NCBI GenBank assembly: GCA_031277805.1
Contig: JAITLR010000006.1
Coordinates: 1 to 64,000 of the forward strand
Direction: 5' to 3'
Source of the DNA: Comamonas sp.
GTDB lineage: Bacteria; Pseudomonadota; Gammaproteobacteria; Burkholderiales; Burkholderiaceae_C
DNA: 64,000 nt
Shown: in pieces, positions 19,254 to 63,913 of the stretch
Layout of the letters: the number at the start of each line of letters is the position of its first letter
How positions within the stretch are numbered: position 1 is the first letter of the stretch
The notes under the pieces: generated by a model
Databases searched by the model: none
Told to the model about the DNA's origin: nothing
What the model saw: only the letters and a program-made list of their open reading frames with translations
Made by a program: the position numbers and the translations under genes

Positions 19254-20363
19254 ATGAGTTTCGCCCCCCTGACCAATGACACCTTCCTGCGCGCCTGCCG
19301 TCGCCAGGCTACCGACTACACGCCCCTGTGGCTGATGCGCCAGGCGGGACGTTACCTGCCCGAGTACAAGGCCACCCGCGCCAAGGCCGGCAGCTTCATG
19401 GGCCTGGCCACGAATGTGGACTACGCCACCGAAGTGACACTGCAGCCGCTGGAGCGATTCCCTCTGGACGCAGCCATTCTGTTCAGTGACATCCTGACCG
19501 TGCCCGACGCCATGGGCCTGGGCCTGTCGTTTGCCGAAGGTGAAGGCCCGCGCTTTGCCAAGGTCGTGCGTGACGAAGCCGCCGTAGCCGAGCTGGCCGT
19601 GCCCGATATGGACAAGCTGCGCTATGTCTTCGACGCCGTGACCAATATCCGCAAGGAGCTCAACGGTCGTGTGCCACTGATCGGCTTCTCCGGCAGCCCC
19701 TGGACCCTGGCCTGCTACATGACCGAAGGCAAGGGCAGCGATGACTACCGCACCGTCAAGTCGCTGATGTACTCGCGCCCCGACCTGATGCACCGCATCC
19801 TGGAAGTCAATGCCGACAGCGTGGCCGTCTACCTGAACGCCCAGATCGACGCAGGCGCACAGGCTGTGATGATTTTTGACAGCTGGGGCGGCGTGCTGGC
19901 CGATGGCGCATTCCAGGAATTCAGCCTGGCCTATACCAAGCGCGTGCTGGCCCAGCTCAAGCGCACCGGCGTGGACGGCACCGACGTGCCCCGCATCGTC
20001 TTCACCAAGGGCGGTGGCATCTGGCTGCCCGACATGAAGGACATGGACTGCGAAGTCCTGGGTCTGGACTGGACTGCCAACCTGGGCAAGGCGCGCGCCA
20101 TTGTGGGCGGTGAGGTCGGCGGCCCCGGCAAGGCACTGCAGGGCAATATCGATCCCAATGTTCTGTTTGCGGCTCCCGAGCAGGTCGCCGCCCAGGCGCG
20201 TGCCGTGCTGGACAGCTTTGGCAAGCCCCACACCGACAGGAACACCACCGGCCCTACGCACATCTTCAACCTGGGCCATGGCATCAGCCAGTTCACTCCG
20301 CCCGAACATGTGGCTGCCCTGGTGGAAGCGGTGCACAGCCACTCGCGCAAACTGCGCGGCTAA
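19254..20363 (+). CDS. hemE: Uroporphyrinogen decarboxylase
   Basis: [26 protein letters not shown] and [14 protein letters not shown]; start refined to MSFAPLTND. Confidence 0.97.
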
Positions 20364-20575
20364 ACGCCTTTACGGCAGTCAATCCAAGGGTTAACCCCTT
20401 GATTCAACCTAGCATCAAGAATGGTTATTGAGCGACATTTGTACCAGCAGATGCCGCTCAAATTCATTCAACCCATTGATTTTCAAAAAGATTCTCAGGA
20501 ATCACAGATTTGTAGAGGCCTCTGCAGGTTTTCACATTTTTTTATTTTTTCTTTCCTGAGCAACACCTGCAGAAG

Positions 20576-20922
20576 TTATCCACATCCGAGGTGGTTCATC
20601 ATCCCTGAAAGCCACGCCACTACGTGCATTAGCGCTATTTTCTTGGCGATTTGCTCACTTTACTGAAGAATTTAAGCGCATTTAGGTCTAGGGAGCTTCG
20701 GTCTTGACAGCCCCTCGTCGCTCATTTATGCACAGATACGCACAGGCAGGTGGATAGTTTCAAGCCTGACAACCAGCCCCGCAAAGATCACGAAAAAATC
20801 AAATAAGTTATTGTTTTATTTATATTTTCAAATTCTTCTATTCGTCCCATACAAATATACAAATGCCGATTTGAAGATCCATAGCGTCTATCACTCGAAT
20901 TTCTCCCACAAAGTTATCCACA
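20576..20922. promoter_or_regulatory. DnaA-box cluster with AT-rich segment in the hemE-priA intergenic region
   Basis: Perfect TTATNCACA at 20576-20584 (TTATCCACA), 20726-20734 (TTATGCACA) and 20914-20922 (TTATCCACA); AT-rich tract about 20800-20860. Confidence 0.6.
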
Positions 20923-21019
20923 AGCCGCAAAGCCTGCAGCAGCATCAAAATCTGCTATAGATCCCATGCCGGCAGTCAGGCTGGCCGGCAAGCATTGCTC
21001 TATCCCCCTCCTTTCACCC

Positions 21020-23197
21020 ATGTCCCACATCGTCAACGTCGCCGTTCAGACGCCCGCCCACAGCGCTGTGGGGGAACTGCTGAGCTACCGCAGTGACGAG
21101 CCCCTGCTTCCCGGCACCCTGGTACGCGTGCCGCTGGGCAAGCGGGAACTGCTGGGGGTCGTATGGGATGCGCCTTCGGCGTCAGGCGAGCTGCCCGACG
21201 GGGTTGCGTTGCGCTCCATCGCTGCCGTGCTGGGGGAGATCCTCCCGTTGAGCCGTAACTGGCGGCGTCTGGTCGGCTTTGCCGCCCATTACTACCAGCG
21301 CAGCGTGGGCGAGATCGCCGTGACCGCCTTGCCGCCCCAGCTTCGCGACATGACGCCCGAACAACTGGCGCGTCGACTGGCCCCACCCAAGCCTGCCAAG
21401 CCCAAGAGCAGGAAAGCAGCCCTGAAACAGGAACAAGCCATTGCCGAGGCCGCTGAACCTGTACAAGCGCAAGCTGTAGTAGCTCCCGGTTTGGTAGCAC
21501 TCAGCGCAGAACAAGCCTCGGTTTTCGAGCAAATCGAGCAAAATCCCGGCCCGTTCCTGCTCTACGGCAGCACGGGCAGCGGCAAGACCGAGGTCTATCT
21601 GCGCGCCGTGCAGGCCGTGCTCGATGCCAACCCAGAGGCCCAGGCATTGGTGATGGTGCCCGAGATCAATCTCACACCTCAACTGGAAGAGCGTTTCGTG
21701 GGCCGCTTTGCCCCCCAGTACGGCAAGGAGTCCGTGGTCAGCATGCACAGCGGCATGACCAACCCGCAGCGCCTCAAAAGCTGGCTGGCCGCCCACAGGG
21801 GCCAGGCCCGCATCGTGCTGGGCACGCGCATGGCCATTTTTGCCAGCCTGCCGCGGCTGACGCTGATCGTGGTCGACGAGGAGCATGACGCCAGCTACAA
21901 GCAGCAGGAAGGTGCGCGCTACTCGGCTCGTGATCTGGCCATCTGGCGCGGGCGTGATACCGGAGCCAAGGTGATTCTGGGCAGCGCCACGCCTTCGCTG
22001 GAGAGCTGGCATGCATCCGCCCCCGAGGTGGGCCGCTATCTGCGCCTCAACATGCCCAGCCGCATAGGCGCGGCCGGCTCAGGCGCGGCATCGCTGCCCA
22101 AGGTCCGGCTGGTCGACATGACCCAGCAGCCGCGCAAGGCCGTGTTCTCACCTCCGCTGATAGAGGCCATCACCGAGCGCGTGAAACGTGGCGAGCAAAG
22201 CCTGATTCTGTTGAACCGCCGCGGCTTTGCGCCCGTGCTGTTCTGCGCCGACTGCAACTGGAAAAGCGACTGCCCGCATTGCAGCGCCCACCAGGTGTTC
22301 CACAAGGGCGACCGCACGCTGCGCTGCCACCACTGCGGCTTTACCCAGCGCGTGCCGTTTTCCTGCCCCAGCTGCGGCAACCCCGATATCCTGCCTCTGG
22401 GCAAGGGCACGGAACAGTTGCAGGAAGAACTGGAGCGACTGCTGCGCAATGTGCAGCGCCCCGATGGCGACCCGGCCCGCGTGGCACGCATAGACGCCGA
22501 CACCACCAAGGCCAAAGGCAGTCTTGAGGAACAACTGGCACAGGTGCATGCCGGCGACGTGGATGTGCTGGTCGGCACGCAGATGGTGGCCAAGGGCCAC
22601 GACTTTCGCCGCATCACACTGGTGGCCGCCGTACAACCCGACAGCGCTTTGTATTCCAGCGACTACCGCGCGCCCGAGCGCCTGTTCTGCCTGCTGATGC
22701 AGGCCGCTGGCCGTGCCGGACGCGATGCCCAGTATGTGAAGGCCCAGGGCAGTCATCCCGAAATGTGGATTCAGACCCATGATCCGCAAAACGCCGTCTA
22801 TACCGCGCTGCGCAAACATGACTATCCGGCCTTTGCCAGACAGCAATTGCAGGAACGCCTGGATGCCGGCATGCCGCCCTATGCCTTCCAGGCCATAGTC
22901 CGTGCCGATGCGCGCAGCCAGGAGGCAGCCCAGGCCTTTCTGAGCGCCGCCACCCAGGTCGCACGCGATGCCAATCTGCCCCATCTGGATGAAGTGTTCA
23001 TCTACCCCCCCATCCCCATGGCGGTGCAGCGCGTGGCCAATGTGGAGCGTGCGCAAATGCTGCTGGAAACCAGCAACCGCAGCGCCCTGCTGCGCTTTCT
23101 GAACGCCTGGCAGCAGTATCTGCACTGGTTGCGTGGCCTGCCCGAGCACAAGGCGCTGGTGCGCTGGCTGGTGGATGTGGACCCGCTGAGCATCTAA
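21020..23197 (+). CDS. priA: Primosomal protein N' (replication restart helicase)
   Basis: Walker A GSTGSGKTEVYLRAV, DEEHD, zinc-binding CADCNWKSDCPHC...CHHCGFTQRVPFSCPSCG, GRAGRDAQ. Confidence 0.96.
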   Translation: MSHIVNVAVQTPAHSAVGELLSYRSDEPLLPGTLVRVPLGKRELLGVVWDAPSASGELPDGVALRSIAAVLGEILPLSRNWRRLVGFAAHYYQRSVGEIAVTALPPQLRDMTPEQLARRLAPPKPAKPKSRKAALKQEQAIAEAAEPVQAQAVVAPGLVALSAEQASVFEQIEQNPGPFLLYGSTGSGKTEVYLRAVQAVLDANPEAQALVMVPEINLTPQLEERFVGRFAPQYGKESVVSMHSGMTNPQRLKSWLAAHRGQARIVLGTRMAIFASLPRLTLIVVDEEHDASYKQQEGARYSARDLAIWRGRDTGAKVILGSATPSLESWHASAPEVGRYLRLNMPSRIGAAGSGAASLPKVRLVDMTQQPRKAVFSPPLIEAITERVKRGEQSLILLNRRGFAPVLFCADCNWKSDCPHCSAHQVFHKGDRTLRCHHCGFTQRVPFSCPSCGNPDILPLGKGTEQLQEELERLLRNVQRPDGDPARVARIDADTTKAKGSLEEQLAQVHAGDVDVLVGTQMVAKGHDFRRITLVAAVQPDSALYSSDYRAPERLFCLLMQAAGRAGRDAQYVKAQGSHPEMWIQTHDPQNAVYTALRKHDYPAFARQQLQERLDAGMPPYAFQAIVRADARSQEAAQAFLSAATQVARDANLPHLDEVFIYPPIPMAVQRVANVERAQMLLETSNRSALLRFLNAWQQYLHWLRGLPEHKALVRWLVDVDPLSI

Positions 23198-62437: not shown

Positions 62438-63913
62438 ATGTCAATTTCACCTTCTACGACAGCCGCCACATCGGGGCTGGCAACGCTGGAAGAACGCCTG
62501 CGCGACGATCTGCTCACGCTGGGCTGGCCTGCCAAGGTCTGGATTCCTCCCTCCACCCGCCGCGATCGGCCCGTGCATGACGTGGTCATCATCGGCGCCG
62601 GTCAGGCCGGGCTGGCCCTGCATGTGGCACTGGGTCAGGTCGGCATCAAGCCCGTGTTGCTGGACAAGTCGCCACTGGACTTCGAAGGTCCCTGGGCCAC
62701 CACGGCGCGCATGGAAACCTTGCGTTCACCCAAGGAACTGACCGGCCCGGCCATGGGCATCCCCTCGCTGTCCTTTCGCGCCTGGTTCATCGCGCAATGG
62801 GGCATAGCCGCCTGGACAGAACTGGACAAGATCCCCCGTCTGCAGTGGATGGACTATCTGCGCTGGTATCGCCGTGTGACCAACGCCGATGTGCGCAACA
62901 GCCATGAAGTCGTGGCCGTGCGCCCGCAGGCCGATGGCGTGGTGGAGGTCGATGTGAAGTCCAACGGCGTCATTGCCACCTGGCAAACCCGCCGCCTGGT
63001 ACTGGCCACGGGCCGCGACGGTCTGGGCGGCGCCACTGTGCCCGCCTTCATGCAGGGTGTGGATAAAAAGTTCTGGGCCCATTCCTCCGACGAGATGGAC
63101 TACGCCACGCTGGCGGGCAAGCATCTGGGCGTGGTGGGCGCCGGCGCGTCGGCCATGGACAGCGCGGCGACGGCTCTCGAAAACGGCGCGGCCAGCGTGG
63201 ACATACTGATTCGCCGCAAGCAACTGCCGCAGATCAACAAATCCAAGGGCTCGGGCGTGCCCGGACTGACCCACGGCCAGTACCTGCTGCCTGACGAATG
63301 GAAGTGGCGCATACGCCACTACATCAACGCCCAACAAGTGCCACCGCCCCACGGCAGCACGCTGCGCGTCTCGCGCCATGACAACGCCTTCTTCAACCTG
63401 GGCTGCGCCGTGCAAAGCGCCACGGTCGTGGGCGACAAGCTGCATGTGCAGACCACGGCCGGCCGGTTTGAGCTGGACTTTCTGATCATCTCCACGGGCT
63501 TTGCGATCGACTGGAGCCTGCGCCCCGAGTTCGCGGACATCGCCCCGCATGTCAAGCTGTGGAACAGCCGCTTCACGCCCGCCGCTGGTGATGAGGACGC
63601 GGAATTGAGCGCATCGCCCGACCTGGGCCCACTGTTCGAGTTCCAGGAGAAAGTGCCTGGCGACCTGCCCGGCCTCGACCATATCCACTGCTTCTGCTAT
63701 CCCGCCGCGCTCTCGCATGGCACGGTATCCGGAGATATTCCGGCCATCAGCGATGGCGCGCGCAAGCTGGCTCAGGGCCTGGCTTCGCTGTTCTACCTGA
63801 ACGATATCGAGCAGCACTTCGCCAAGCTGCAAGCCTATGCCGAGCCCGAGCTGGATGGCTCGGAATGGACCGTGGCCGACAGCGCCGCGCGCATCCGCCA
63901 GCTTCAACAATAA
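62438..63913 (+). CDS. FAD/NAD(P)-dependent oxidoreductase (flavin monooxygenase-like)
   Basis: VVIIGAGQAGLALHVALGQVGIKPVLLDKSP and second Rossmann HLGVVGAGASAMDSAATAL. Confidence 0.87.
   Translation: MSISPSTTAATSGLATLEERLRDDLLTLGWPAKVWIPPSTRRDRPVHDVVIIGAGQAGLALHVALGQVGIKPVLLDKSPLDFEGPWATTARMETLRSPKELTGPAMGIPSLSFRAWFIAQWGIAAWTELDKIPRLQWMDYLRWYRRVTNADVRNSHEVVAVRPQADGVVEVDVKSNGVIATWQTRRLVLATGRDGLGGATVPAFMQGVDKKFWAHSSDEMDYATLAGKHLGVVGAGASAMDSAATALENGAASVDILIRRKQLPQINKSKGSGVPGLTHGQYLLPDEWKWRIRHYINAQQVPPPHGSTLRVSRHDNAFFNLGCAVQSATVVGDKLHVQTTAGRFELDFLIISTGFAIDWSLRPEFADIAPHVKLWNSRFTPAAGDEDAELSASPDLGPLFEFQEKVPGDLPGLDHIHCFCYPAALSHGTVSGDIPAISDGARKLAQGLASLFYLNDIEQHFAKLQAYAEPELDGSEWTVADSAARIRQLQQ

Follow-up and report, generated by a model that had tools for sequence, protein, structure and literature searches.

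A probable DnaA-activity control site of the datA/DARS class between hemE and priA in Comamonas

Two kinds of chromosomal site that act on DnaA, datA and DARS, have been worked out essentially in E. coli. A DARS stimulates the release of ADP from DnaA and needs its DnaA box I to face box II; in DARS2, Fis-binding sites 2-3 and an IHF site at a fixed distance from the core are further features. DARS1 and DARS2 lie in the promoters of uvrB and mutH (PMC5835720); no protein factor such as IHF has been reported as required for DARS1 (PMC4585315), and homologs of DARS2 have been published for gammaproteobacteria related to E. coli (PMC4245941, PMC8682772). In datA, the essential boxes all point the same way on either side of a single IHF site (PMC5742627), and the layout that we measured agrees. 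We compared these sites with the gap between hemE and priA in a draft genome of Comamonas sp., which lies within the 64,000-nucleotide stretch of DNA that we analyzed (hereafter, the window). An earlier note on this DNA had offered three readings of the gap: the chromosomal origin, a second initiation site, or a datA/DARS-like locus. The last fared best, and the gap is probably a site of the datA/DARS class that controls DnaA activity, not an origin. All box, IHF, and DARS comparisons below are motif matches.

The gap holds a DnaA/IHF module, read as a TTATGCACA box, 78 bp, an IHF-like site, 110 bp, and a TTATCCACA box, and to its left what remains of a second module. The features, by position in the window, are:

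19254-20363, + strand: ORF, left flank, which we take from established family knowledge to be hemE (uroporphyrinogen decarboxylase)
20469-20481, - strand: IHF consensus match AATCAATGGGTTG of the left module, a perfect WATCAANNNNTTR, 107 bp upstream of box B
20576-20584, + strand: DnaA box B (TTATCCACA), perfect, right end of the left module
20726-20734, + strand: DnaA box C (TTATGCACA), perfect, distal box of the right module
20749-20757, - strand: weak inverse box CTATCCACC, 6/8
20804-20816, - strand: IHF-like site AAACAATAACTTA within the AT-rich tract, 8/9, 78 bp after C and 110 bp before D
20902-20910, + strand: weak box III position (TCTCCCACA), 5/8, 12 bp before D
20914-20922, + strand: DnaA box D (TTATCCACA in ACAAAGTTATCCACA), perfect, equivalent to DARS box II
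20928-20936, - strand: place of the facing DARS box I in other Gammaproteobacteria, 0/8 here, no box
20953-20961, + strand: conserved TGCTATAGA, kept in the nearest relatives
21020-23197, + strand: ORF of priA (replication-restart helicase), right flank

From the hemE stop codon (20363) to the priA ATG (21020), the gap measures 656 bp (20364-21019). Its GC content is 44.1%, compared to 62.0% window-wide, and was the lowest of all 656-bp stretches when the window was sampled at 50-bp steps, in agreement with the earlier description of an unusually AT-rich gap of about 650 bp. The three perfect boxes listed in that description, at 20576, 20726, and 20914, are all on the + strand, and the weaker inverse box (ggtggatag at 20749-20757) is also real; its position is not conserved in the relatives compared. 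Several GATC sites had been pointed out as well; three are present (20786, 20876, and 20960), a number not above chance. The 4.16-Mb draft genome contains 36 perfect TTATNCACA boxes, so that about 0.006 would be expected per 656 bp, and the three seen exceed chance by far, also when the AT content is taken into account. Stronger evidence than the number of boxes is their spacing, which is fixed across genomes. Genes for IhfA and Hda are present in the genome.

Boxes also occur outside the gap. A lone perfect TTATCCACA (63058-63066, - strand) lies within a long ORF of the window, without a partner at the module spacing. On another contig of the same genome (C29, about 148277-148379), perfect TTATCCACA and TTATGCACA boxes lie 94 bp apart on one strand, between aminotransferase-like and acetyltransferase-like ORFs; a scan of the 4 kb around this pair found no match to the IHF consensus.

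The footprint set consisted of the priA-upstream regions of 60 relatives, 47 from the genus and 13 from other genera; PriA itself was present in all 54 genomes of the genus. Boxes C and D were 187-190 bp apart, start to start, in 60 of 61 sequences, the window counted in (mean 188.2 +/- 0.65 bp for 60 genomes). The single exception has TTGTGCACA and a spacing of 181 bp. In the 34 elements with a spacing of exactly 188 bp, the frequency of the top base was about 0.42 through most of the interval but rose to 0.94 at C, to 0.76-0.81 in the stretch 79-96 bp past C, and to 0.86-1.00 at D and immediately ahead of it. Within the interval, whose GC content ranges from 34 to 64% across the family, conservation is confined to C, the IHF site, and boxes III-II. 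The middle peak is a minus-strand IHF consensus, with 78 bp between it and C on one side and 110 bp between it and D on the other; the AT-rich tract that the earlier note placed at about 20800-20860 is therefore the IHF region, and in the window it contains the IHF-like site. An IHF match 108-112 bp before D was found in 47/60 (genus and family, at 109-111 bp), 24/27, and 40/67 (class) elements, compared to about 0.5% of shuffled sequences at that distance. As all genome sets used here are samples with shared ancestry, counts over them, here and below, are not independent events.

This pattern of conservation bears on whether the gap encodes a structured RNA, a small RNA, or a small gene in which words resembling DnaA boxes occur by chance. 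The region is long, intergenic, and partly conserved, and in the closest relatives there is block conservation upstream of box C. However, no Rfam family was found in the region, and conservation across the family is limited to the protein-binding words, which are separated by unconserved DNA of fixed length. We consider such an RNA or gene very improbable. A mobile or viral origin was rejected, since the module had no match in plasmids or phages.

Could the gap be oriC? It has three perfect boxes and an AT-rich tract that looks like an unwinding element, and dnaA was not found in the draft genome, which is 86% complete; its absence is probably an assembly gap. However, GC skew in the window is negative to the left as well as to the right of the gap. 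G021, the nearest complete relative, whose PriA is 95% identical, has the same gap at 436 kb. In 20-kb stretches sampled from G021, skew was +0.03 to +0.07 throughout 400-456 kb and switched only near dnaA and at 2.7-3.0 Mb, not at the gap. Moreover, dnaA is present in 19 of 19 relatives tested, always elsewhere than the gap. In most relatives, dnaA is about 0.32-0.56 Mb from the gap, and on contigs beginning at dnaA the distance is about 0.34-0.56 Mb; by arithmetic, this corresponds to 7-9% of the chromosome in most complete relatives, with 17-19% for one subgroup. The AT-rich tract is the place of the IHF site, and its sequence is not conserved. With these observations against it, the gap is almost certainly not the chromosomal origin. 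DnaA boxes, AT-rich DNA, and an IHF site beside priA might also suggest a second or backup place of initiation, perhaps dependent on PriA. Yet a conserved unwinding element is not what the DNA between the boxes looks like: beyond the IHF site it is unconserved, and its GC content varies widely. No local skew anomaly or switch was seen, and dnaA lies elsewhere; we hold this second proposal to be highly unlikely too.

More distant relatives suggest how the gap is built. In outgroup genera, four boxes are arranged as A-198-B-about 140-C-188-D, and both B and D are preceded, at 110 bp, by an IHF site. Among the relatives with a box B, most show an IHF match 99-111 bp upstream of it. By this comparison, the gap is laid out as two modules in tandem; the window keeps B and its IHF site but has lost the partner A, found about 198 bp upstream in other genera. 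Some genomes, for example Collimonas, have two or more tandem copies of the module in the hemE-priA gap.

We searched for the module in wider groups. The pattern TTATGCACA-N(177-192)-TTATCCACA matched 39 of 300 genomes drawn over Burkholderiales, and all 30 order-level matches inspected, the window among them, lay between hemE and priA, with flanks that match the hemE query. In Gammaproteobacteria, TTATNCACA-N(176-184)-TTATCCACA matched 188 of 369 sampled genomes. Both patterns gave no match when reversed. Among 67 class-level matches examined, priA was downstream on the same strand in 31, 30 of them within 335 bp, and hemE adjoined only one. Because hemE is usually missing beside the module in other Gammaproteobacteria, the link that the earlier note drew between hemE and the Caulobacter oriC looks incidental. 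A strict pattern that includes a perfect IHF site, which the window misses by the one mismatch in its own IHF site, occurred in at least 120 named stretches; the titles shown were nearly all beta- or gammaproteobacterial (e.g., Collimonas, Ramlibacter, Polynucleobacter, Marinobacter, and Methylomonas). Among the strict matches listed, 66/120 were at priA or on its hemE side and 54/120 were elsewhere, which argues that the module works as a unit. Outside the class, one of about 113 genomes in the phylum sample had the strict pattern. Many beta- and gammaproteobacteria carry this module at priA; it is absent from the priA-rpmE gap of E. coli. We found no description of hemE or priA with a DnaA box in open-access text. 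A review does report that DARS-like sequences occur in many proteobacteria, so that earlier notice of priA-linked copies is possible.

Copies away from priA have settings of their own. In several Gammaproteobacteria, the module follows immediately on a hemW-like gene, and in many of these cases rdgB precedes and a citrate synthase gene comes next, in the recurrent order rdgB/hemW/element/citrate synthase; these genes are presumably what we call them, as the names come from recognizing the sequences and not from a family search. Other class-level copies are near shikimate-dehydrogenase-like, ksgA-like, TRAP-transporter-like, 5′-3′ exonuclease/polA-like, and homoserine-kinase-like genes.

The module often lies immediately upstream of priA and on its strand, which is compatible with transcriptional control. 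The main rival to a DnaA-control site is that the boxes form a DnaA- and IHF-dependent regulatory region of priA, through which DnaA would couple transcription of the restart helicase to replication status. All 31 class-level copies linked to priA point in the same direction as priA and are typically 85-172 bp upstream, and close relatives carry a TGCTATAG element after box D. However, anything from 42 to 301 bp separates D from the priA start while the C-D geometry stays fixed, nearly half of the listed strict matches are not at priA, and a consensus promoter scan found no sigma-70 promoter in the gap, nor did it pick up the conserved TGCTATAGA, possibly an extended -10 of priA. We regard priA regulation as a possible but rather unlikely explanation of the boxes. 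As DARS1 and DARS2 themselves lie in promoters, control of DnaA and control of priA transcription may coexist.

The surroundings of box D tie the module more closely to DARS. When E. coli DARS1 and DARS2 are read in the same direction, box III is at -12 and box I at +14 from box II. A same-direction box (III) matching at least 6/8 was present 12 bp before D in 65/67 class-level elements and 19/60 genus and family elements, and a facing box (I) was present 14 bp after D in 58/67 class elements; the background rate for a box at either position is about 1%. An alignment of the class consensus.tT.aTCCACA.AGTTATCCACAG.tt.TGTGgatAA with DARS1 TCTAATACACATGGTTATCCACAGGAATAGTGGATAACT needs no gaps. 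Across the wider class, box D (TTATCCACA) is the middle of an E. coli DARS core, III-12-II-14-I. Box I is kept in relatives such as Collimonas and lost in the Caballeronia, Pararobbsia, and Polynucleobacter copies. Several Comamonadaceae retain a remnant (5-6 of 8), and the window has none (0/8). A second facing-box core was found neither elsewhere in the window's own genome nor in 9 of 13 Comamonas-type relatives; an isolated palindromic box pair was found in 4 of the 13. As box I is gone in this lineage, the remaining full boxes are all head to tail, as in datA. Ancestrally, the module appears to have been a DARS2-like core with an IHF site and a distal box, upstream of priA.

Of the E. coli sites, DARS2, in the rppH-mutH region, shares with the class-level module the core III-12-II-14-I and an IHF-like site on the same side and in the same orientation, 110 bp from box II in the module and 99 bp in DARS2, a difference of about one helical turn. 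A TTATCCACA box is present in DARS2 too, at 197 bp from II; this distal box is inverted in DARS2 but direct in the module, and the place is mutH in one and priA in the other. The window copy retains the IHF site at a fixed distance from the core (an 8/9 match 110 bp from D), but differs from DARS in having no box I 14 bp from II; its box III is weak (5/8). The same missing box separates it from DARS1, with which the class-level copies share the III-12-II-14-I spacing and a place in the promoter of a DNA-maintenance gene. At DARS1, TTTTTAACA, which differs from TTWTNCACA at one position, has the same direction as box II and is 189 bp upstream of it; this is the spacing seen in the priA module, and may be chance.

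The datA site resembles the window in other respects. In both, high-affinity boxes in one direction flank a single reversed IHF site (box 2, IHF, and box 3 in datA; C, IHF, and D in the window), and a weaker box in the same direction lies 12 bp from a strong one (TTGTAAACA before box 2 in datA, whose low-affinity box beside box 2 is essential). The distance to oriC is similar, about 467 kb for datA by MG1655 coordinates. However, the neighboring genes differ, the boxes of datA are 162 bp apart (65 + 97) compared to 188 bp (78 + 110) in the window, and the weak -12 box is beside the first strong box in datA but beside the last, D, in the window. Since datA polarity is shared, while the intervals differ and the weak box is at the other end, the window copy appears to work on a datA/DARS-like plan but can be assigned to neither class. 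Anatomy and conservation strongly support the proposal of such a locus, although the copy in the window departs in some features from each of the E. coli loci.

How might a DnaA-control site in the gap work? By extension from E. coli (PMC5742627, PMC4245941, PMC8682772), DnaA would bind the high-affinity box C and boxes III-II (D), and IHF would bend the DNA between C and D, so that DnaA molecules bound about 188 bp apart could touch and form a looped complex. DnaA would be retained in this complex and its nucleotide state altered, and in this way the time at which oriC fires would be adjusted. As to the direction of the effect, we lean slightly toward titration or ATP hydrolysis over reactivation. 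With its 8/9 IHF match, 5/8 box III, and absent box I, the window copy fits neither DARS nor datA exactly.

We tentatively propose a history for the locus that, on present evidence, is possible but doubtful as a whole: an ancient module of a distal direct DnaA box, an IHF site, and a DARS core, shared by beta- and gammaproteobacteria, resided mainly upstream of priA and was copied elsewhere, and in Comamonadaceae loss of the facing box may have turned a DnaA-reactivating site into a datA-like site that holds or inactivates DnaA. If the control reading is true, control of DnaA by non-origin DNA would be far wider than the E. coli sites, as roughly one in two Gammaproteobacteria sampled has a module with the DARS core spacing, for which priA is the most frequent place, and control of DnaA would be tied to replication restart. 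Copies in which the core is intact, partly lost, or lost would form a natural series for testing which boxes decide between activation and inactivation.
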